Assembly (NCBI GenBank): GCA_903822595.1
Contig: CAIJPS010000034.1
Coordinates: 1 to 35,763 of the forward strand
Length of the DNA: 35,763 nt
Source: an uncultured Chlorobiaceae bacterium
Lineage (GTDB): Bacteria; Bacteroidota; Chlorobiia; Chlorobiales; Chlorobiaceae
Reading direction: 5' to 3'
Shown here: positions 4,517 to 28,183 of the stretch, one piece after another
How the letters are laid out: every line of letters starts with the position of its first letter
Position numbering within the stretch: position 1 is the stretch's first letter
Notes under the pieces: model-generated
The model's input: the letters and a program-made list of their open reading frames with translations, nothing else
Told to the model about the DNA's origin: nothing
The model's database searches: none
Position numbers and translations under genes: made by a program

Positions 4517-7500
4517 TCAGGACTGCTGGCCGCAACAGTTTTTATATTTTTTTCCGCTTCCGCAAGGGCAGAGATCATTGCGGCCCGGCTTTTTTTCAGC
4601 TACCGCAGGTTGCTGAACGCTCTCTTCACCCTCATCCTCCTCATTCTCATTCTGTTCGACAATGGTGTAAACACTTCCCGCGGGGGAGTGCTGGGCAACC
4701 AGCTTATCTTGCCGAATCGCAGCTTTCCGCTGGCGCTCTTCCATCTCATGTGCTTCTTCAGGATCGACAGGAAAAAGCTTGAAGGCAAGTGAGAGGGTTT
4801 CGAGTTCTATGTCGCGCAACAGATCGATAAAAAGACGGAATGCCTCCTGTTTGTACTCAAGCAGGGGATCTTTCTGTCCATAAGCGCGTAAATTGATGCC
4901 TTCACGCAGGGAGTCGATCTCCCGGAGATGCTCTCTCCAGCGGAGGTCAATGACGCTGAGGACGGCATATTTTTCAATCTGCTGCATAATCTCTTCCGGC
5001 ACAGCCGCCTCTTTTCTGCGGTAAAAAGCGAGGGCTGTCTGGTAGAGTTTTTCGGCTGTGACATCTATGCCTTCGCGCTCAAAGCTCTCCCTTTCAGGTT
5101 TGAACTCAATGGAGAGTTCGCGCATCAGTTGTTCCTCAATAGCATCGACATCGAACTGCTTGTGGTACTTTTTGACGACCAGGTCACTGTAATCTTTGAG
5201 CAGATCAAGGATGTCACTGGTCAGACGTTCCTTGAGAAGGCCGTTGCGGCGTCGGGAATAGATTACCTCGCGCTGCTGGTTCAGGACGTCGTCATATTCA
5301 AGCAGCCGTTTACGGATTGAAAAGTTCTGTTCCTCAACTTTTTTCTGAGCCCGCTCGATTGATTTGGTGATCATGGAGTGCTCAATGACATCGCCCTCTT
5401 CATGCCCCAGACGATCCATAACCGAAATGACCCGGTCGGAACCGAACAAGCGCATCAATTCATCCTCAAGAGAGACAAAAAAGACCGACTCTCCCGGATC
5501 ACCCTGTCGTCCGGCACGTCCACGAAGCTGGCGGTCGATACGGCGTGATTCGTGACGTTCGGAACCAAGAATAAAAAGCCCTCCCAGTTCACGGACACCA
5601 GGGCCGAGCTTGATATCGGTTCCGCGTCCAGCCATATTGGTGGCGATGGTCACCGCATTTTTCTGACCTGCTTCGGCTACAATTTCTGCTTCACGATCAT
5701 TTTGCTTGGCGTTGAGCACATTGTGTGTGATTTTTCTGGCGCGAAGCATTCTTGAAAGGGTTTCCGAAACCTCGACACTTGTTGTGCCGACAAGCACGGG
5801 CTGTCCCTTTTTCTGCAACTCTTCAACCCTCAGTATAATTGCGTTATATTTTTCGCGGCGGGTTTTATAGACCAAATCGTCCATATCCTTTCGGATGATA
5901 CTTGCATTGGTCGGAATGACGACGACATCGAGCTTGTAGATTTCATAAAACTCTGAAGCTTCGGTTTCCGCTGTACCGGTCATTCCAGCGAGCTTTTTGT
6001 AGAGCCGGAAAAAGTTCTGGATGGTGACGGTTGCCATGGTCTGCGTTTCACCTTCAATCTTGACATTCTCCTTGGCCTCTATGGCCTGGTGCAGTCCGTC
6101 GCTGTAACGGCGGCCGGGAAGGATTCGTCCGGTAAACTCATCGACAATCATGACCAGCCCATTCTGTACCACATATTCGTCGTCACGCTCGAAGAGTGAG
6201 TAGGCTTTCAGCAATTGACTGATATTGTGCAGCCGCTCTGAACGGTCGGCAAAAAGGCGGTAGACCTCATCTTTTTTCTGGATTTTGTCGGCAACGGCTA
6301 CCGATGCGTCGCTCTCAATGATGGCGACTTCAGAGCCGACATCGGGCAGCATGAAGATATCACTGTCCTGGTGGCTGAGCTTGCTGAGAAACTCGCGTCC
6401 CTTGTCGGTAAGGTCAATCGTATTCGCTTTTTCGTCAACGGCGTAATAGAGCTCATCATCAACCTCCTGCATTCGGCTCGAATTGTCTTTCAGATATTCG
6501 TTTTCTGTACTCTGCACCAGTTTTGCCACGCCTGATTGGGAGAGCATCTTGATGTAGCGGGTGTTTTTTGGCTGTCCGCGTTTGACACGAAGCAGGGCAA
6601 GACCTGCTTCCGCATCACCCGGTTTGGTTTTCATCAGTTTTTCGGCCTCACCGAGGTATGTTGCCACCAGTTGCTGCTGGGCACGCACCAATTGCTCAAT
6701 CCAGGGTTTGATCTCCTGGAATTTGCTGTTGTCGGCATTGGGTACAGGTCCTGAAATGATAAGCGGCGTTCTGGCTTCATCAATCAGTACGCTGTCAACC
6801 TCATCAACGATGGCGTAGTAATAGTTCCGCTGCACCATCTCTTCCGGGGTACCGGCCATATTGTCGCGCAGATAGTCGAAGCCAAATTCGTTGTTTGTGC
6901 CGTAGGTGATATCACAGGCATATTGCTCCCTTCGTTCCTCCGGCCTCATGGTGTTGAGAATAACACCTACCGAGAGATGGTGAAAGTCAAAAACAGGGCT
7001 CATCCACTCTTTGTCTCTCTGCGCAAGGTAATCATTGACTGTTACGACATGCACGCCTCTTCCGGTCAGTGCATTAAGGAACACCGGCAGTGTGGAAACA
7101 AGGGTTTTGCCCTCACCGGTCGCCATTTCGGAGATTTTTCCGGAATGGAGCACAATTCCGCCGATAAGCTGGACATCGTAAGGCACCATGTCCCAGACCA
7201 TCTCTCTTCCCATGACCAGGTAGGAGAGTCCTTTAAGACGTACACAGGTCTCTTTTACAAGAGCAAAGGTTTCAGGAAGAAGCTCTTCAAGGATAGTGGC
7301 CGTAACCTTCTCATACTCTTCGGCCAGCACGTCGAGGCGGGCGTTGATGGTTTCCGCCTCTTCAAGATTGATATCCGGGTTATCCAGTTTCAGCGAGAGC
7401 GACTTTTTCTCCAGCTCATTGGGTTCAAGAGTGGTCCGGACCTTTTGCTTCAGCTTAAGTCCCCGTTCTCTCAACTGGTCGTCACTGAGCGATGCCATGG

Positions 7501-7597
7501 TAACCTGCAGTTCATTGATACTGCTGATAATGGGCTGGATTTTTTTGACGTCCTTTTCGTGCTTGGAGCCGAAGATCTTCTCAAAAATTTTCAACAT
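4517..7597 (-). CDS. secA: Preprotein translocase ATPase SecA
   Basis: SecA is the ATPase motor that pushes unfolded preproteins through SecYEG. The 1026-residue protein has the Walker A region MATGEGKTL (GEGKT 161-165), the DEAD-type box DEVD (264-267) followed by [11 protein letters not shown], the second-motor motif GRGTDI, and [12 protein letters not shown]. It ends with a SEC-C zinc motif, [13 protein letters not shown]. It is more than 100 residues longer than E. coli SecA, mainly through an insertion after the DEAD motif (roughly residues 290-420). From family knowledge, this insertion is usual in Bacteroidota/Chlorobi. The ATG at 7597 has AAAGG about seven bases upstream. secA leads the likely secA-purL-nnr transcript. 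Confidence 0.97.
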
Positions 7598-7736
7598 GTA
7601 CAGGCCTTTGTGATCTCTTAGGGGGTTTCAAATAATTTTTTTGATGAACAGGGGAGGTATTCCTCTCTCTATCCGCTATGTCCAATTGATGCTCAAGGTA
7701 TTGAATTAGACATTGAGAAAAAAGCGGGATGATTTG

Positions 7737-7768
7737 AAAAAAAACAGTGGCGGGGATTTCCCGCCACT
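7737..7768 (-). terminator. Rho-independent terminator
   Basis: Nine-base perfect stem, 7746-7754 with 7760-7768 (AGTGGCGGG on the plus strand), and a five-base loop. On the minus strand it is followed after one base by eight Ts (7737-7744). It lies about 40 bp past the stop of the SDR gene at 7810 and separates that gene from the secA transcript. Confidence 0.9.
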
Positions 7769-7809
7769 TCACGCTCAACTGCAACGCAGGGAATAGCTTT
7801 CTCCTTTAA

Positions 7810-8694
7810 TTATATATTGGCAGCAAGTTCCGTAAAAAAATCCTTCAGGTGACGGATTCCGCAAGCAGGCGCAATATGGTCAAATTTGAGCGCTTCAACG
7901 GCAAAGGAGAGAAGGTCGGCCAGATTGCGGTTGAAAAGCCCGGTTACCATAAGGCCACCTTCGGCAAGCCACATGGGGAGTGGCGTTATCCACGGGGTTT
8001 TCCCGCATGTATGGAATGCCAGCTCCATCACCTCCCGGAAGGTATAGATATCGGGGCCGCCGATTGCAATTTCACGACATTCTCCCTCCACTGCATCGGC
8101 ACAGACCTTCGCAAGGTCGGCGCCATGAACCGGGTTAATTTTTTTCTCCCCCTCGCCGACCATGAAGATGTGGCCGCTTTGAGCCATTGAAAAAAAACGC
8201 CCCATATCCGAAAAATAACCGTTGGGACGTATGACCGCCCAGGAAAGTCCTGATTTTTTGAGATCGGCGACAAAGAGTTCGTGAGCTTTTATTGAAGGTA
8301 TCTCGGCCATTTTATCCTGGTTGAAGACCGATACATAAATAAATCTTGATACGTTTTCCCGGATAGCCTGTTCAAGGATTCGACCGTTACCAAGGTGGTC
8401 GACATCAAAGCTGGTAAGGGTCGGGTCAGGAGATGTCAATCCGAGTGAAGAAAAAACAATATCGACTCCCTCGCAAAGACCCTTGATGCTTTCGGGATTG
8501 GTTACATCGCCAATAATCAGATCGTCAATGATATCATATATTGCCGGTTCTCCGTGAGGACCTGCAGTTTTTATTTTATCCGGGTTTCTGACCAGAGCTC
8601 GGACGGAATAGCCCCGCTCCTTGAATTCCTTGACAGCGTATCTGCCGAGGTAGCCGGAGGCTCCGGCTACCAGTACTTTTTTTGTGACGGTCAT
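7810..8694 (-). CDS. NAD(P)-binding SDR-family protein (NmrA/atypical SDR)
   Basis: This is a 294-residue atypical short-chain dehydrogenase. The N-terminal Rossmann motif GASGYLG and the basic stretch RALVRNPDKIK after strand two suggest NADP(H) binding. Further family features are DIVFSSLG, RFIYVSVF and WAVIRPNGYFSDM. There is no clear YxxxK pair at the usual place, as in NmrA-like and Ycf39-like proteins, so it may be a binding or assembly protein rather than an active reductase. I prefer the ATG at 8694, with GAGGAG ten bases upstream; the ATG at 8712 has no ribosome site. It follows the DNA glycosylase gene by 64 bp and ends before a strong terminator. The substrate is unknown; in phototrophs related proteins act in chlorophyll metabolism or photosystem assembly, but nothing here proves that. 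Confidence 0.8.
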   Translation of the reverse strand: MTVTKKVLVAGASGYLGRYAVKEFKERGYSVRALVRNPDKIKTAGPHGEPAIYDIIDDLIIGDVTNPESIKGLCEGVDIVFSSLGLTSPDPTLTSFDVDHLGNGRILEQAIRENVSRFIYVSVFNQDKMAEIPSIKAHELFVADLKKSGLSWAVIRPNGYFSDMGRFFSMAQSGHIFMVGEGEKKINPVHGADLAKVCADAVEGECREIAIGGPDIYTFREVMELAFHTCGKTPWITPLPMWLAEGGLMVTGLFNRNLADLLSFAVEALKFDHIAPACGIRHLKDFFTELAANI

Positions 8695-8758
8695 GGTTTT
8701 ATGGCTCCTCATTTCAGGTTTTATCGTTATGAACCTCTCAAGTCAAGCATTTTTTTTA

Positions 8759-9712
8759 CTAAAACGTTCGAAGCCGCTTTACCTCCCTGCGCCAGCAGTG
8801 AAAAAGGAGATGTCCGGCGTAGCCGGCAAGATCCGGGTTCAAAAAAGTACGAGCTTCCGCATCAAGGGCAAGATAGGTGGCCGGGCTCAGGGAGCGAAGA
8901 GCTGTTGAGCTGTTGAACCATTTTCCCAGGTACTGTTTGACGTGGGTATCAATCGGGAAGGCATCAAAACGGCCAAGACCGAAGAGCGCAACGCAATCAG
9001 CAATCTTATAGCCGATACCTCCGTTTTGGCACAGTATGCTGCGCAGTTCTGAAAGCGGAATTTGAGGATCACCCAAAGCTTCAAGATCAACTCTTCCTTC
9101 TGCTACACGCTGGGCAGCGAGAATAATATTGCGGGCCCTGATCCGATTATTGTTGGTGCAACTGCTGAGCAGAGCGGGATCGGCTGCAGCAAGTCGTTCG
9201 GGAGAGGGGAAGCTATGCAGAACGATCTCATTCCCCAGAAATGAAACGCACCTCTTTTCACCATAGGTTTGCACAAGCATTGCGACCTGTTTTCTGATCA
9301 GATGCATTCCAATGCCCTGGGCGCACATGAATGAGATCATGGTTTCAAAGGAATCCTGCCTCATGACCCGCAGTGAAAAATATGGCATCAACAGTTGCCA
9401 GATTTCCGGATAACGTTCAGGAAAATCCTTTGGAAATACCTTTTTCGTGTCAATATCAAGTGTGAAATAATGGGAAATAAAATCCTCTAATGGTACACCA
9501 TCAATGCATTTTGTTGTAGAATATATTTCGAATTCATGTTCTGATATCCCTTTTATAAGAACAGGATAAGATTGAATTATTGAAGAGTAAAACGTTTTTC
9601 CATAGTTATGAATATTCCACAAAAAAGTCTGGCCACTGAAGAGCGTATCTCTGATATTTAAGCAGATTTTTGAGTTTATTTTATAATGATATTTTAAAAT
9701 CAGTGAATTCAT
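8759..9712 (-). CDS. 8-oxoguanine DNA glycosylase-like HhH-GPD protein
   Basis: This 317-residue base-excision repair enzyme has the OGG1 architecture: an N-terminal beta-rich domain (about 1-110) followed by a helix-hairpin-helix GPD domain. The motif GGIGYKIADCVALF carries the catalytic Lys236, and FPIDTHV carries the essential Asp255. These are the equivalents of the OGG1 lysine and aspartate that form the Schiff base and activate the reaction. FETMISFMCAQG resembles the OGG1 helix preceding the recognition site, so removal of oxidised purines with AP-lyase activity is likely. No Fe-S cluster cysteines are seen. The first ~90 codons are clearly more AT-rich than the rest of the gene and continue into an extremely AT-rich upstream gap, suggesting mosaic history. 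It probably shares a transcript with the downstream SDR gene. Confidence 0.87.
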   Translation of the reverse strand: MNSLILKYHYKINSKICLNIRDTLFSGQTFLWNIHNYGKTFYSSIIQSYPVLIKGISEHEFEIYSTTKCIDGVPLEDFISHYFTLDIDTKKVFPKDFPERYPEIWQLLMPYFSLRVMRQDSFETMISFMCAQGIGMHLIRKQVAMLVQTYGEKRCVSFLGNEIVLHSFPSPERLAAADPALLSSCTNNNRIRARNIILAAQRVAEGRVDLEALGDPQIPLSELRSILCQNGGIGYKIADCVALFGLGRFDAFPIDTHVKQYLGKWFNSSTALRSLSPATYLALDAEARTFLNPDLAGYAGHLLFHCWRREVKRLRTF

Positions 9713-10215
9713 TTTATTTCTAAGATAACCTGTGCCTGTTTGGTTAATATTTTGTGTTTCATGGATTGCCTTAAATACTTAAAATGAAAGAAAATAAATA
9801 ATGTTGCTGAAAACTTTTATATGTAATTTTTTTTGTTGTTATTTTGTTTTTTATTGAACAGAAAAGAGCGATTATTGTTTATTTTTAATTTTGAGTAGTG
9901 ATGTAAGATTAGTTTTAATTGATTGTTTTAAATTTTATTTATCCGCTTCAATTTTTTTTATTGATGGATAGGCTTTTATTGTTTTTCTTTGTGCTCTATA
10001 AGTTATTTTATTAGCTTAATTCTGAATTTGGTGTAAAATAAGGTATACTTTATGCGCTAATCGAAAGATAGATATTTTTATTTTTAAGGTCTTGCTTTTT
10101 TTCTTTTTATTGTTATTAATCTGTGCAAATAATTGTTATAGGTGCTTGTGAATCCAGAGGAAATCCGGCAAAAAAACTGGATTTCCTCTGGACTCATGCT
10201 TCCTGTGGTGGGGTT
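9713..10215. other. AT-rich intergenic region without a gene
   Basis: About 500 bp of very low GC sequence with many T-runs on the plus strand (therefore A-rich on the minus strand, the sense strand of the glycosylase gene). I see no credible ORF, tRNA or repeat array. It must hold the promoter of the glycosylase gene, but the composition is too biased for me to pick -35/-10 boxes. The only defined structure is the hairpin at its right end (10153-10192). Confidence 0.6.
10153..10192. terminator. Long perfect hairpin, probable terminator
   Basis: A 14-base stem, TCCAGAGGAAATCC at 10153-10166 with its exact complement at 10179-10192, closes a 12-base A-rich loop. It begins 23 bp beyond the stop of the minus-strand SDR gene, the position expected for its terminator. 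There is no T-run after the stem on the minus strand, so it may act as a processing or 3'-end stabilising structure instead. Confidence 0.6.
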
Positions 10216-16870: not shown

Positions 16871-16909
16871 TGGTCGACGATATGGTCGATTCAGCGACCG
16901 GCTGGTCGA
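16871..16909. promoter_or_regulatory. Candidate enhancer sites for the sigma-54 activator
   Basis: TGGTCGA occurs three times (16871-16877, 16883-16889, 16903-16909), and an inverted copy, CGACC (16895-16899), pairs with GGTCG (16884-16888) to make a dyad with a six-base centre. The cluster lies 90-130 bp upstream of the -24 element of the sigma-54 promoter, the usual distance for NtrC-family binding sites. Confidence 0.6.
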
Positions 16910-16997
16910 GATTCCGGAGAAAACCGGTATCTAAGATGATATTAATAATAAAAACAAAGTATTATTTATTATATGGTTACGGGTATTATATTTTTTG

Positions 16998-17013
16998 TGG
17001 CACGGTAATTGAT
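16998..17013 (+). promoter_or_regulatory. Sigma-54 (RpoN) promoter
   Basis: TGGCACG (16998-17004), four bases, then TTGAT (17009-17013). The -24 GG and the -12 element are separated by exactly ten bases, as sigma-54 requires. The -24 half is a perfect match to the consensus; the -12 half has GA instead of GC. A start about 12 bases further gives a leader of about 40 nt before the ATG at 17066. The gene immediately upstream encodes a sigma-54 activator. Confidence 0.65.
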
Positions 17014-17065
17014 TCTCTTACTGATGATAGTGGAATGGGGATTTGTTAAAAAGGGAAGCAGTGCC

Positions 17066-17428
17066 ATGAGTTTTTTCAAGATTTTGATTGTTGTTGTTGT
17101 TGTTGTTGTTCTGCATTCGGGCAGTTTTGTCCAGGAGGCATTCGCCGAAGCGCCGGTAACCATCAATCAGACGCAGCAAGGAGTGGTTGATGGATGCAGG
17201 GGAGATGGGGGGCAAAAAAAGGTCAGGTTTCTGGATGAAAATGGTGATGGTCTCAATGATCTGCTTCAGGACAGTGACGGTGATGGTATTCCTGATGGAA
17301 GGATGTGTGATGGATCAGGATATGGTACCGGTCGTGGAGGTTTTTACCGGCAGGGTGGCGGCGGTATGATTGAAGGCGCTGGTAGAGGTTCTGGCAACGG
17401 ATTCCGGCAGGGCCGTGGAAGAAGGTAG
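17066..17428 (+). CDS. Small secreted protein with calcium-binding-like DxDGDG repeats
   Basis: A 120-residue protein with a signal peptide: hydrophobic core of isoleucines, leucines and seven consecutive valines, and probable cleavage after AFAEA. The mature part has two tandem thrombospondin type-3-like acidic repeats, DENGDGLND and DSDGDGIPD, which normally bind Ca2+. Two cysteines (DGCRG and RMCDG) flank them, and the tail is rich in Gly and Arg. No known enzyme domain is present. The ATG at 17066 has AAGGGA nine bases upstream; an earlier TTG at 17009 lies inside the promoter and is rejected. It is the first gene after the sigma-54 promoter, 44 bp before a cytochrome c gene. A periplasmic metal- or partner-binding role is only an inference. 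Confidence 0.75.
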   Translation: MSFFKILIVVVVVVVLHSGSFVQEAFAEAPVTINQTQQGVVDGCRGDGGQKKVRFLDENGDGLNDLLQDSDGDGIPDGRMCDGSGYGTGRGGFYRQGGGGMIEGAGRGSGNGFRQGRGRR

Positions 17429-17472
17429 AAAAAGCTTTTGGTGTATAACCCAAAAAATCAAGTATTATCAGG

Positions 17473-17901
17473 ATGAAAAGATTGTTATTGATGGTGGGCG
17501 TGGGGTTGCTGTTCAACACGGCAGCAGACGCAGCAACAAAAGCCCTGGATGGTCAGGCAATTTTTGACAGAAACTGCACGGTGTGTCATGCAATGAATCC
17601 GCCGCCAAAATCAGCCCCCCCGATTATTGGGGTGATCTCCCGATATCACACAAAATTTCAGACGAAAGAGGATGGCGTCAATCATCTTGTCGCCTATTTG
17701 AAATTACCAGATTCGAAAAATGCTGTTGAGCCACAAGCCATAACAAGATTTGGGCTTATGCCTCCATCACCACTTTCTGACCCGGAATTGAAAGCTGTAG
17801 CGGGATGGGTGTGGGATCACTATGACCCGGCCATGGGTTCATGTGACGGTTTCAGAGGCCAGGGAAGAACGAACAACAATTGCAATGAAGGAATAAAATG
17901 A
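17473..17901 (+). CDS. Periplasmic monohaem c-type cytochrome
   Basis: A 142-residue precursor with a cleavable signal peptide (about 1-20, ending AADA). It has one haem-attachment motif CTVCH (C35, C38, H39) and a likely distal ligand Met96 in GLMPPSP, the pattern of class I cytochromes c. It is therefore probably a soluble periplasmic electron carrier or the electron-accepting subunit of a small enzyme. Its stop overlaps the start of the DUF4405 gene by four bases (ATGA), so the two are translationally coupled and may act together. The ATG is preceded only by a weak AGG. It differs clearly from cytochrome c-555 encoded at 22281. Confidence 0.88.
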   Translation: MKRLLLMVGVGLLFNTAADAATKALDGQAIFDRNCTVCHAMNPPPKSAPPIIGVISRYHTKFQTKEDGVNHLVAYLKLPDSKNAVEPQAITRFGLMPPSPLSDPELKAVAGWVWDHYDPAMGSCDGFRGQGRTNNNCNEGIK

Positions 17902-18731
17902 AAAAATCTTTTCGTTGGCGGGTATTTATAAGCTTCGGGCTTTTTATTGCACTCTTGATGATGCTTGTTTCGGGCGTCATCCTCTATATTTCACCTCCCG
18001 GCAGGGTCGCAAACTGGACGGATTGGCGATTGATCGGTCTTACAAAAACAGGCTGGCGAAATCAGCATCTTATTTTTGGATTTGCCTTTATTCTGCTCTC
18101 GCTCTTCCATCTTTTTCTGGTTAACTGGAAGGCGTTTTTGTGCTACCTCAAAACAAAAACAGCGGAAGGAGTCAAGCGTCCAATCGAGTTACTGGCCATT
18201 CTGCTGCTCTCATTTTTTTTCGGATTGGGGACCTATTATGGGCTCGAACCCTTTTCAGCAATCATACAGTTTGGCAACAGGATCTCCAGCTCATGGGAAG
18301 GCCAGGAGAAGAGAGCGCCCGTTCCTCATGCTGAGCTTATGACCTTGACAGAGCTTTCGCAGCAGCCGGGCATGGGCGGCGATCCTGAAGCCCTGAAAGC
18401 AAAACTTGAAAAAGCAGGGTTAAAAGTTACCTCATCGAAAGAGACCCTGGCAGTAATAGCCGAGGCAAACGGCATGGCGGCAGAAAAAGTGTACGAGATG
18501 CTTGCGCCCGAAGAACACGGGAAGTCGAAACTGAGTGGCAAGGGTTTTGGACAAAAAACCCTGCAACAGATAGCCGATGATGCGGGGGTTTCAGCCGTGT
18601 CACTGCAACTTGCACTCCGCCAGAAAGGGATTGAAGCAAAAACGGATACACCACTCAAAACGATTGTAGAAGAGAACGGTATTGAGATGAGGGAGTTGCG
18701 GCAACTGCTTGAAACGATGATCAGTCGGTAA
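17898..18731 (+). CDS. DUF4405 membrane protein with helical repeat tail
   Basis: The 277-residue protein has an N-terminal DUF4405-like membrane domain with three hydrophobic helices (about 8-30, 55-75, 95-115). Conserved histidines in WRNQHLIFG and LFHLFLVNW could ligate b-type haem, as in related membrane cytochromes. From about residue 150 it becomes soluble and contains repeated helix-turn-helix-like units of the form TLxxIAxxxGxxxxxVxxxL (near 180-205, 213-236 and 248-275). These resemble small ligand- or protein-binding modules found attached to this family in anaerobes. The start overlaps the cytochrome c stop. I infer that it passes electrons between the quinone pool and that cytochrome; the family has no proven function known to me. 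Confidence 0.75.
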   Translation: MKKSFRWRVFISFGLFIALLMMLVSGVILYISPPGRVANWTDWRLIGLTKTGWRNQHLIFGFAFILLSLFHLFLVNWKAFLCYLKTKTAEGVKRPIELLAILLLSFFFGLGTYYGLEPFSAIIQFGNRISSSWEGQEKRAPVPHAELMTLTELSQQPGMGGDPEALKAKLEKAGLKVTSSKETLAVIAEANGMAAEKVYEMLAPEEHGKSKLSGKGFGQKTLQQIADDAGVSAVSLQLALRQKGIEAKTDTPLKTIVEENGIEMRELRQLLETMISR

Positions 18732-24706: not shown

Positions 24707-27700
24707 ATGCATAAGCAAGATGTTGATAGTTCTGATTCATTAAGAAGGGGATTTTTCTCTGAGAAGTCTGGAGAAGAATTTAACGCAAACACTCCAGCAC
24801 ACCACGTTCAGGGTCGCCAGATCAGAGTCTTTATCTCCTCCACATTCCGCGATATGCAGGCCGAGCGGAATTTGCTGGTGAAGAAGGTATTCCCGCAACT
24901 TCGTAAACTCTGTGAAGAACGCGCTGTTGCATGGACAGAGGTTGACCTGCGATGGGGAATCACCGAGCAAGAGTCATCGGAAGGTCAGGTACTGCCGCTT
25001 TGCCTTGCTGAAATCGAGCGATGCAGGCCCTACTTTATCGGGCTTTTGGGTGAGCGATATGGTTGGGTTCCAGATCCTGGCGAGATATCGAGTAACCTCA
25101 AGGAAGAACAGCCCTGGCTGAAAGAGCATCTCCAAAAGTCAGTCACAGAGCTTGAAATCATTCATGGGGTGCTGCAGAGCCCAAAGATGCGGGATCGTTC
25201 GATCTTCTATTTCCGTAATCCCGATTACCTGAACAAGTTACCCGCTGACGCTGATCCAAAGGATTTCCAGAGTGAATCACCCGAGTCTGCAGAGAAGCTT
25301 TTTGAGCTCAAGAACAAGATCAGAGCTGAATACACCGCTGGTAAACTGGACTATTCGCCTCGCGAAAACTATCCTGCTCCCGATGCTCTTGGTGAGCTTG
25401 TACTCGCAGATTTCACAGAGCTGATCAACAAGCTTTATCCAGAAAGTGAAACTCCCGATCCGATAGATCAGGAAGCCACGTTGCATGAGGCTTACGGTCG
25501 AAGCCGCAGGCTTGCTTTTGTTGGTCGAGAAGAGCTGCTGAACAAAATGGACAACCACGCAGCAACCTCCGGCGCGAAACCGCTGGTGCTGACCGGAGAG
25601 TCAGGTTGCGGCAAATCAGCCCTTCTTGCGGAATGGGCTGCGCGCTGGAAGGAGAGCCATTCTGATGATCTTGTCATCCAGCACTATATTGGCAGTACCT
25701 CTGAAAGCGCCGATTGGCAGGGTCTTGTTCGGCGTGTGCTTTCGGAGCTGAAGCGAGCATTCACTATTGCTGAAGAAGTCCCGATCCAGCCTGAAGCCAT
25801 GCGCACAGCAATGCAGGATTGGCTGGTGAAGAGCGCAGGCAAACGCCGGATAGTGCTGCTGTTTGACGCACTCAATCAACTCTCAAGCACGGATGCTGCT
25901 GCCCGTCAACTTGGCTGGTTGCCTTTTGCATTTCCGCCGAATGTCACTCTTATCGTTTCATCGCTCGAAGGTGAAAGCCTTGATGCGTTACGTAAACGAG
26001 AATGGCCGGAACTGTCCGTCCCGCTTTTTGGTCTCGACGATATTGCTCCCGCAGCAGTGTCCTACTTCGGAATTTTCAGCAAGAAACCTTCTGAAAAACT
26101 CCTTGGTGAGTTGACTAAGGCAGCACCGGCAACCTGCAATCCACTGTTCCTTCGTGCGGTGCTCGACGAACTCCGCCAATTCGGAGAGCATGAAAAAGTA
26201 GGAGCACGTGCATCGTATTATCTCGCATCACCAGACCTGCCGGGGCTCTTCGATCGAATCCTGGTCCGATGGGAAGAGGATTTTGATATTGAACTTGTCC
26301 GCCACAGTATGAGACTGATCAGATGTGCAAGGTTTGGGCTCTCAGAGACAGAGTTACTTGACTTGCTGGGAAAGAAAGATGCTGAAGGAAAATGCGAACC
26401 ACTGCCTCGTCGATACTGGACGCCGCTTTACCTTGCTGCAGAAAACGCCCTTGCCCAGCGATCGGGACTTTTGACCTTTGGTCATGACTACCTTCGAAAG
26501 GCGGTTGAAACCAGATATTTCAAGTCGCTGGACGACTGGGACGATGCCCGCCTGGAATTTGCCGACTGGTTTGAAGTAATTCCGGAACCAACTGACCGAA
26601 AGCTTGATGAACTGCCAGGCTTGCTCCGCGATACCAAGTCACATGAGCGTTTGGTCAGATTCTTTTCTGATATGCCGACTTTCCTGCGAATGTTCCAAGA
26701 TACTCGATTGAAGTGGGAACTACATGGGTATTGGCTGGCACTTGAAGGGCGATATGATCCTGTGGTGACCTATCAAAAAGCTCTGGATGCAATTGAAGGA
26801 GACCTTCCCGGTAATTCCTACGCCTACATTTTCAATGGAGTTGCACTGTTTCATCAGGATGCAGGCAGGTATGGAGTTGCAGAACCGCTTTTGCGCCGAG
26901 CGTTGGCGGATTATGAGCGAGTGCTGGGCAAAGAGCATCTCGCTACGCTATCGTGCTTGGACAACCTCGCGGTTCTGGTCATGCATAATGGAGACTACGC
27001 AGGCGCGGAACCTTTAGGCCGCCGGGCGTTGGAGGGTCGAGAGCGAGTGCTGGGCAAAGAGCATCCCTCTACTCTCAGTACCATGAACAACCTCGGGAGT
27101 CTGCTAAGTAGCAAGGGAGACTACGCAGGCGCGGAACTGCTCTATCGCCGTGCGCTGGAAGTTCAAGAGCGAGTGCTGGGCAAGGAGCATCCCGATACGC
27201 TCACGAGCATGAACAACTTAGCGGAATTGCTCCGTAGCAAGGGGGGCTACGCAGAAGCAGAACCGCTGTACCGTCGAGCGCTGGAAGGTAGTGAGCGCGT
27301 GCTGGGCAAGGAGCATCCCCAAACACTCACGTGCGTGGGCAACCTAGCGAGTTTGCTGTATGACCAGGGAGGCTATGCACAAGCGGAAAAGCTGTACCGT
27401 TGGGTGCTGGAAGTTCAAGGGCGAGTGCTGGGCAAGGATCATCCCGATACGCTCGGAAGCGTGAACAACCTCGCGCTTCTGCTCAAGAATAAGGGCGAAT
27501 ACGTAGGTGCGGAAGAGCTTTACCGCCGGGCGCTTGATTGTTGCGAGCGAGTGCTGGGTAAGGAGCATCCTCATACGCTTACTAGCATGAACAACCTTGC
27601 GGTTCTGCTAATGCGCAAGGGAGATTACGCAGGAGCAGAATCACTGAGCCGTCTAACGATAGAGGCTCAATATCGAGTTTTGGGGGAGGATCATCCCGAT

Positions 27701-28183
27701 ACTCTTATTGGCGTGATCAACCGAGCAAATCTGCTAATGCGCATGGGAAACTACGCAGGAGCAGAAGTGTTGTACCGCCGGTCGCTGGAGGGTCGAGAAC
27801 GAGTGCTGGGCAAGGAGCATCCCGATACGCTCACGAGCATGAACAACTTGGCGGCTCTGCTCTATAGCAATGGCGACTATGCAGGCGCGGAACCGCTGTA
27901 TCGCCGAGCACTGAAGACTCGAGAGCGAGTGCTGCGCAAGGATCATCCCGATACGCTCACGAGCGTGATCAATCTCGCGGTTCTGCTCGATAGCAAGAGG
28001 AATTACACAGAAGCGGAACCGCTTTATCGTCGGGCGCTGGGGGTATATGAGCAAGTACTGGGTAAGGAGAATCCCGATACGCTCTCAATCAAGAGTAATC
28101 TTGACGCCTTGTTAAAAAGAAAATCAGCAGATACCAAGAACGCAATATCTGACAAAAAACCTTGGTGGAAAAAGATATTCTAA
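24707..28183 (+). CDS. DUF4062-NTPase-TPR (STAND/NPHP3-like) protein
   Basis: The 1158-residue protein has three parts. A DUF4062 domain (about 38-175) starts with RQIRVFISSTFRDMQAER and includes LRWGITEQES and LLGERYGWVP. A P-loop NTPase follows (about 270-540), with Walker A GESGCGKS (297-304) and a Walker B-like LLFDALNQL (D387), and then a helical winged region. Ten kinesin-light-chain-type TPRs of 42 residues complete it (about 720-1139), with the consensus GDYAGAEPLYRRALE...RVLGKEHPDTL. The order is that of eukaryotic nephrocystin-3 and bacterial STAND proteins, in which TPRs sense a trigger and the NTPase oligomerises. DUF4062 at the N-terminus may be the effector or adaptor. There is no Shine-Dalgarno site. 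It converges with the SLOG gene with 5 bp between stops. Confidence 0.88.
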   Translation: MHKQDVDSSDSLRRGFFSEKSGEEFNANTPAHHVQGRQIRVFISSTFRDMQAERNLLVKKVFPQLRKLCEERAVAWTEVDLRWGITEQESSEGQVLPLCLAEIERCRPYFIGLLGERYGWVPDPGEISSNLKEEQPWLKEHLQKSVTELEIIHGVLQSPKMRDRSIFYFRNPDYLNKLPADADPKDFQSESPESAEKLFELKNKIRAEYTAGKLDYSPRENYPAPDALGELVLADFTELINKLYPESETPDPIDQEATLHEAYGRSRRLAFVGREELLNKMDNHAATSGAKPLVLTGESGCGKSALLAEWAARWKESHSDDLVIQHYIGSTSESADWQGLVRRVLSELKRAFTIAEEVPIQPEAMRTAMQDWLVKSAGKRRIVLLFDALNQLSSTDAAARQLGWLPFAFPPNVTLIVSSLEGESLDALRKREWPELSVPLFGLDDIAPAAVSYFGIFSKKPSEKLLGELTKAAPATCNPLFLRAVLDELRQFGEHEKVGARASYYLASPDLPGLFDRILVRWEEDFDIELVRHSMRLIRCARFGLSETELLDLLGKKDAEGKCEPLPRRYWTPLYLAAENALAQRSGLLTFGHDYLRKAVETRYFKSLDDWDDARLEFADWFEVIPEPTDRKLDELPGLLRDTKSHERLVRFFSDMPTFLRMFQDTRLKWELHGYWLALEGRYDPVVTYQKALDAIEGDLPGNSYAYIFNGVALFHQDAGRYGVAEPLLRRALADYERVLGKEHLATLSCLDNLAVLVMHNGDYAGAEPLGRRALEGRERVLGKEHPSTLSTMNNLGSLLSSKGDYAGAELLYRRALEVQERVLGKEHPDTLTSMNNLAELLRSKGGYAEAEPLYRRALEGSERVLGKEHPQTLTCVGNLASLLYDQGGYAQAEKLYRWVLEVQGRVLGKDHPDTLGSVNNLALLLKNKGEYVGAEELYRRALDCCERVLGKEHPHTLTSMNNLAVLLMRKGDYAGAESLSRLTIEAQYRVLGEDHPDTLIGVINRANLLMRMGNYAGAEVLYRRSLEGRERVLGKEHPDTLTSMNNLAALLYSNGDYAGAEPLYRRALKTRERVLRKDHPDTLTSVINLAVLLDSKRNYTEAEPLYRRALGVYEQVLGKENPDTLSIKSNLDALLKRKSADTKNAISDKKPWWKKIF
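26864..28123 (+). repeat. Ten tandem 126-bp repeats encoding TPRs
   Basis: The reading frame contains ten units of exactly 126 bp (42 codons) with no indels, starting at 26864, 26990, 27116, 27242, 27368, 27494, 27620, 27746, 27872 and 27998. Many neighbouring units share long identical DNA segments, for example around GAGCGAGTGCTGGGCAAGGA, so the array probably grew by duplication and is kept similar by recombination. Units 1, 7 and 10 are the most diverged. Confidence 0.9.

Follow-up and report, generated by a model that had tools for sequence, protein, structure and literature searches.

Control of sigma-54 transcription by NtrC-type regulators follows an established scheme in which the regulator loops the DNA and remodels the sigma-54 closed complex, and the enhancer of NtrC itself has the form TGCACC-(A/T)4-TGGTGCA (PMC4987338). 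In the enterobacterial ZraSR-ZraP system a membrane kinase and an NtrC-type regulator control a small periplasmic protein via sigma-54, the zraP and zraSR promoters being divergent (PMC4987338). On sigma-54 regulons of Chlorobium, the literature searched (a search that lay outside subscription journals and RegPrecise itself) gave nothing beyond a class-level remark on nitrogen fixation. The window analysed here, 35,763 nucleotides of a contig from an uncultured Chlorobiaceae bacterium, carries a locus that, by every feature testable in sequence, is an NtrC-type sigma-54 two-component circuit. It resembles the NtrBC type in its receiver-AAA+-Fis HTH regulator, its GAFTGA motif, its −24/−12 promoter and its dyad enhancers about 80-150 bp upstream. 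By contrast, its half-site is TCGACC/GGTCGA, its two dyads are locked 20 bp apart and its targets are different; no nitrogen link of the circuit was found. The kind of system is known, while its regulon and target proteins appear to be undescribed within the literature searched, which agrees with the proposal in a first-pass annotation that the target is new: no description of this gene set was encountered there. For sigma-54 control among green sulfur bacteria, the locus offers an exact and testable enhancer code and a regulon.

The source assembly comprises 3.04 Mb in 109 contigs with a completeness of 97.6%. It encodes the FMO antenna protein (E 2e-223), and one gene of the window specifies a cytochrome c-555-like protein, for which entry 4j20 is the best solved relative; this marks the organism as a Chlorobium-like green sulfur bacterium. 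The first-pass annotation had proposed a complete circuit running from kinase through activator, enhancer and promoter to a target operon, with rpoN to be looked for, and in outline this proposal holds: a profile search of the genome found rpoN (PF04552, E 3.7e-51), the boxes are conserved, and all parts of the circuit are present in the window (Table 1). According to the standard NtrC/sigma-54 mechanism, the membrane kinase would sense an extracytoplasmic signal and phosphorylate the regulator at D53, after which regulator dimers, using the Fis-type HTH, would bind the tandem dyads (16874-16909) and form an AAA+ oligomer. The AT-rich linker of roughly 90 bp would then loop, allowing the GAFTGA loop to remodel sigma-54 RNA polymerase in the closed complex at 16998-17013, and a transcript from about 17024 would cover the genes for the secreted protein, cytochrome c and the DUF4405 membrane cytochrome. 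We consider it very likely that the kinase/regulator pair activates the predicted operon 17066-18731 by this mechanism.

Table 1. Predicted components of the circuit, with positions in the window
Feature	Position	Strand	Basis or features
Sensor histidine kinase, 686 aa	13379-15439	+	Pfam, motifs, hydropathy; gene pair conserved in relatives
NtrC-type response regulator, 452 aa	15482-16840	+	Pfam, motifs; orthologue in 36/65 genus genomes
Putative enhancer dyad 1, TCGACGATATGGTCGA	16874-16889	.	1 mismatch to TCGACC-N4-GGTCGA; kept in relatives
Putative enhancer dyad 2, GCGACCGGCTGGTCGA	16894-16909	.	Start 20 bp after dyad 1; kept in relatives
Putative sigma-54 promoter, −24/−12 TGGCACG-GTAA-TTGAT (TGGCACGGTAATTGAT)	16998-17013	+	Motif match and conservation in relatives
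Small secreted protein, 120 aa	17066-17428	+	Signal peptide, two D-x-[ND]-G-D-G loops, Gly/Arg-rich tail
Secreted monohaem c-type cytochrome, 142 aa, CTVCH at residue 35	17473-17901	+	Pfam Cytochrom_C
DUF4405 membrane cytochrome-like protein, 277 aa	17898-18731	+	Pfam DUF4405

A TGGCACG-N4-TTGAT element had been placed 52 bp before the ATG at 17066, and the sequence check located it at the promoter position of Table 1. Comparison with relatives shows the GG of this element to be invariant and its TTG at −12 to be conserved. The textbook −12 element is TTGC(A/T), whereas the element here is TTGAT, with A after the G where the consensus has C; this A is common to 31 of the 46 catalogued dyad-promoter sites. 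The exact pattern TGGCACG-N4-TTGMW has only four occurrences in the 3.04-Mb genome. Of the other three, one precedes nifH and provides an internal positive control of the motif, another lies ahead of a cation-efflux-like operon downstream of a further NtrC-type regulator, and the last is followed by an unknown gene. Transcription would be expected to start near 17023-17025. If instead a sigma-70 promoter read the operon and the −24/−12 match were incidental, the near-fixed distance of the −24/−12 box from the dyads would be hard to understand, because it persists where regulator identity has fallen to 67% and the surroundings have diverged. A −24/−12 match with one mismatch is not rare in DNA of the window's size, and a weak sigma-70-like match does lie at 16936-16965; however, sigma-70-like matches in the region (11) barely exceed those in shuffled sequence (6.9), and we regard this reading as very improbable.

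Two further exact boxes were seen elsewhere in the genome. At G000:C102 ~42766-51249 (locus L222, 4767-13250), an exact −24/−12 box, TGGCACGATTTTTGAA, stands downstream of a second kinase/NtrC-type pair and heads an operon of TolC-like, membrane-fusion and CusA-like efflux genes; this is apparently another sigma-54 circuit, which probably serves metal efflux. The other, at G000:C103:65134-65149 (locus L224), lies ahead of an unknown gene (MTTVSTMYGDLSGVEFRSLYSNGKTDG...) in a fimbria-like-looking neighbourhood.

Upstream of the predicted promoter, three TGGTCGA boxes and one inverted CGACC had been reported. Their positions were confirmed (16871, 16883 and 16903, with CGACC at 16895-16899; 89-127 bp above the −24 box), but the unit proved to be a different one, namely two tandem 16-bp dyads of the form TCGACC-N4-GGTCGA. 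Three direct TGGTCGA boxes were rejected as the enhancer unit because the TGG of the first box (16871-16873) varies among relatives; the first TGGTCGA amounts to no more than dyad 1's left arm preceded by bases that are not conserved. TGGTCGA by itself is weak evidence, with 8 copies in the window against about 3.9 expected. A genome scan for single dyads was uninformative, with 141 matches compared with 190 for the control pattern. The tandem pair CGAC-N6-GTCG-N6-CGAC-N6-GTCG, by contrast, is matched here without mismatch, and the genome scan for dyads suggested in the first-pass annotation found it at this place only, no other genomic site having fewer than 2 mismatches; the best of 5000 dinucleotide shuffles of the intergenic region had 3. 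The dyads start 20 bp apart in 44 of the 46 catalogued sites and 21 bp apart in two, both in G011. That the dyads are terminator or attenuator hairpins after the regulator gene is extremely improbable: the stem that CGACC-GGCT-GGTCG could form directly past the regulator stop codon is followed by no T-run and is absent from the terminator scan list, the same dyad pair stands upstream of other operons without a preceding regulator gene, and the dyads keep a fixed spacing from the promoter rather than from the stop codon of the regulator gene.

The geometry of the region was compared among the catalogued sites. The distance from dyad 2 to the T of the TGG in the −24 box was 101-105 bp in 40/46 sites, and the off-mode distances were 92-94 bp in four sites, 90 bp in one and 113 bp in one. 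The 92-94 bp sites are about one helical turn shorter, and the 113 bp site about one turn longer, than the 101-105 mode; the dyad-promoter distances of G024 and G084, which are closely related, are exactly 20 bp apart. This distribution, with few off-mode sites in the sample, points to a role of helical phase, which looping would lead one to expect. The linker here is 75% AT, and a scan of the dyad-promoter linkers gave no consistent IHF site.

That the boxes would be conserved in relatives was borne out across the genus, where the dyads are retained and inherited together with the regulator orthologue. With the dyad pair counted at ≤1 mismatch, it was found in 36 of 65 genus genomes and the regulator orthologue likewise in 36; 35 genomes had both, 28 had neither and there was one exception in each direction (Fisher 4e-16, a value that overstates the number of independent events since the species are related and the co-inheritance is phylogenetically correlated). 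Both exceptions, G072 and G064, are fragmented assemblies of ~450 and ~520 contigs, respectively. In G034 and G011 the counted match is a coding coincidence, but genuine sites exist in each, with 3 mismatches or a spacing of 21 bp; with both scored as misses, the Fisher value is still 6e-14. Pattern matches of the dyad pair in the genus numbered 52 against 9 for a reversed control; of the 52, five fall within long reading frames and appear fortuitous. The gene following the site encodes a small secreted DxDGDG protein in 37 of the 46 dyad-promoter sites and cytochrome c-DUF4405 in 9, five of the 46 having been assigned by reading (secreted-protein family, FVDADNNGINDR); the catalogued loci were gathered partly via regulator and target homology, and the genus-wide dyad scan is the unbiased part.

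These distributions also bear on whether the adjacent kinase/regulator pair controls something else while another activator binds the dyads of a working sigma-54 region. The genome has strong matches to NtrC-type activators in seven places, and cross-talk within the family is possible. However, genomes without the regulator orthologue also lack the dyad pair, with one exception (G064, which is 82% complete), and those checked retain other NtrC-type activators. Moreover, in several species the sites precede the kinase-regulator operon itself. Control by another activator is therefore improbable in our estimation, and the adjacent regulator is the preferred candidate. In those several species the site lies upstream of an operon with the order cytochrome c-DUF4405-kinase-regulator, and since the operon runs into the kinase and regulator genes, the system is probably autoregulated there; in the window's species no dyad-promoter site was found upstream of the kinase-regulator genes. 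A different condition was seen at L175 (G067:C42), 6600-9911, in a genus genome without kinase, regulator and cytochrome c at the locus, where the secreted-protein gene is a broken remnant and DUF4405 and OsmC/DUF134/methyltransferase genes are retained.

The kinase and regulator genes adjoin each other, and the pair is conserved in relatives. In the kinase, hydrophobic segments at residues ~15-45 and 306-333 flank an extracytoplasmic sCache_3-like domain, followed by PAS, HisKA (H481) and HATPase_c; structure prediction of the sensor domain gave a mean pLDDT of 53.5, too low for a structure search. The regulator consists of a receiver (D53), a sigma-54 AAA+ domain (Walker A, GAFTGA at residue 218, FLDEV) and a Fis-type HTH_8, and its recognition-helix region is invariant or nearly so in six orthologues with identity down to 67%. 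A likeness to ZraSR had been pointed out, and it holds for the architecture, with ZraR and ZraS among the better solved-structure matches of the two proteins and autoregulation in some relatives; it fails at the level of equivalog scores, target and layout. Among NCBIfam equivalogs the regulator scored 438 of 760 cut-off bits for ZraR and 523 of 714 for AtoC, and the kinase 190 of 479 for ZraS and 275 of 646 for AtoS. AtoC and AtoS are the best-scoring equivalogs, but no acetoacetate genes were seen among the targets, and membership in either ZraSR or AtoSC was rejected because both proteins fall below the cut-offs. The pair being a ZraSR orthologue, that is, a zinc/envelope-stress system with a displaced target, is accordingly very doubtful, the more so as the target lacks a ZraP-type domain, contains cytochromes, and lies downstream and co-directional rather than divergent.

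Within the predicted target operon, the cytochrome c gene ends 4 bp into the DUF4405 gene. The secreted protein matched no Pfam or NCBIfam family at cut-off, the nearest weak matches being TSP3 and EF-hand. Haem b binding has been shown for another DUF4405 protein, and the third gene of the operon shares its DUF4405 domain with ferrosome FezC and the DUF4405 cytochromes (PMC11334425). Unlike ferrosome FezC, the DUF4405 protein here accompanies secreted proteins and a c-type cytochrome, and the annotated genes surrounding the operon include no recognised apbE or fez gene. In view of the c-type cytochrome and the acidic secreted proteins that accompany DUF4405, our best guess, a tentative one, is that the operon serves electron or metal-ion handling in the cell envelope or at the surface. 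One mutant or expression experiment could reveal the signal and function of the module. Two side observations were made in the window. At 17090-17110, seven GTT triplets in the signal-peptide region encode a valine stretch that is only four long in the close relative G002; in-frame slippage is possible. Further downstream, the 1158-aa product of 24707-28183 has a P-loop-like segment and numerous tetratricopeptide-like repeats.

Related arrangements extend beyond the genus. Regulator orthologues of 50-59% identity in other families of the phylum lie near DxDGDG secreted-protein genes with −24/−12 boxes, and several of these distant loci carry CGAC-N6-GTCG dyads spaced 20-22 bp, while at several others dyads were not found near the −24/−12 boxes. 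A contig scan of regulator relatives of ~40-49% identity gave no comparable dyad-promoter-secreted-protein arrangement. A SlipAM (DUF560)-like outer-membrane barrel of ~375 aa is present in most relatives and is a frequent neighbour of their secreted-protein genes (L290:8650-9801, L295:8432-9550 and homologues), so the small secreted proteins may be exported cargo of the barrel; a search of the window's genome, run without a positive control, found no homologue of it. In one distant relative (L302) the gene order is secreted proteins, barrel, DUF4405, kinase and regulator. An orphan secreted-protein family is in this way tied to cytochromes and a dedicated sensor, and the module occurs across several of the phylum's families. 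It is conceivable, though on balance we doubt it, that these loci represent an old regulon whose dedicated kinase/NtrC-type pair governs an envelope module made up of DxDGDG proteins, SlipAM-like barrel, cytochrome c and DUF4405, perhaps an unrecognised surface redox or metal-handling system with the secreted proteins as barrel cargo. In some relatives, genes for DUF2202 proteins (L301, L306) or for other small helical proteins (L264, L265) adjoin the secreted-protein genes, which may hint at metal handling.
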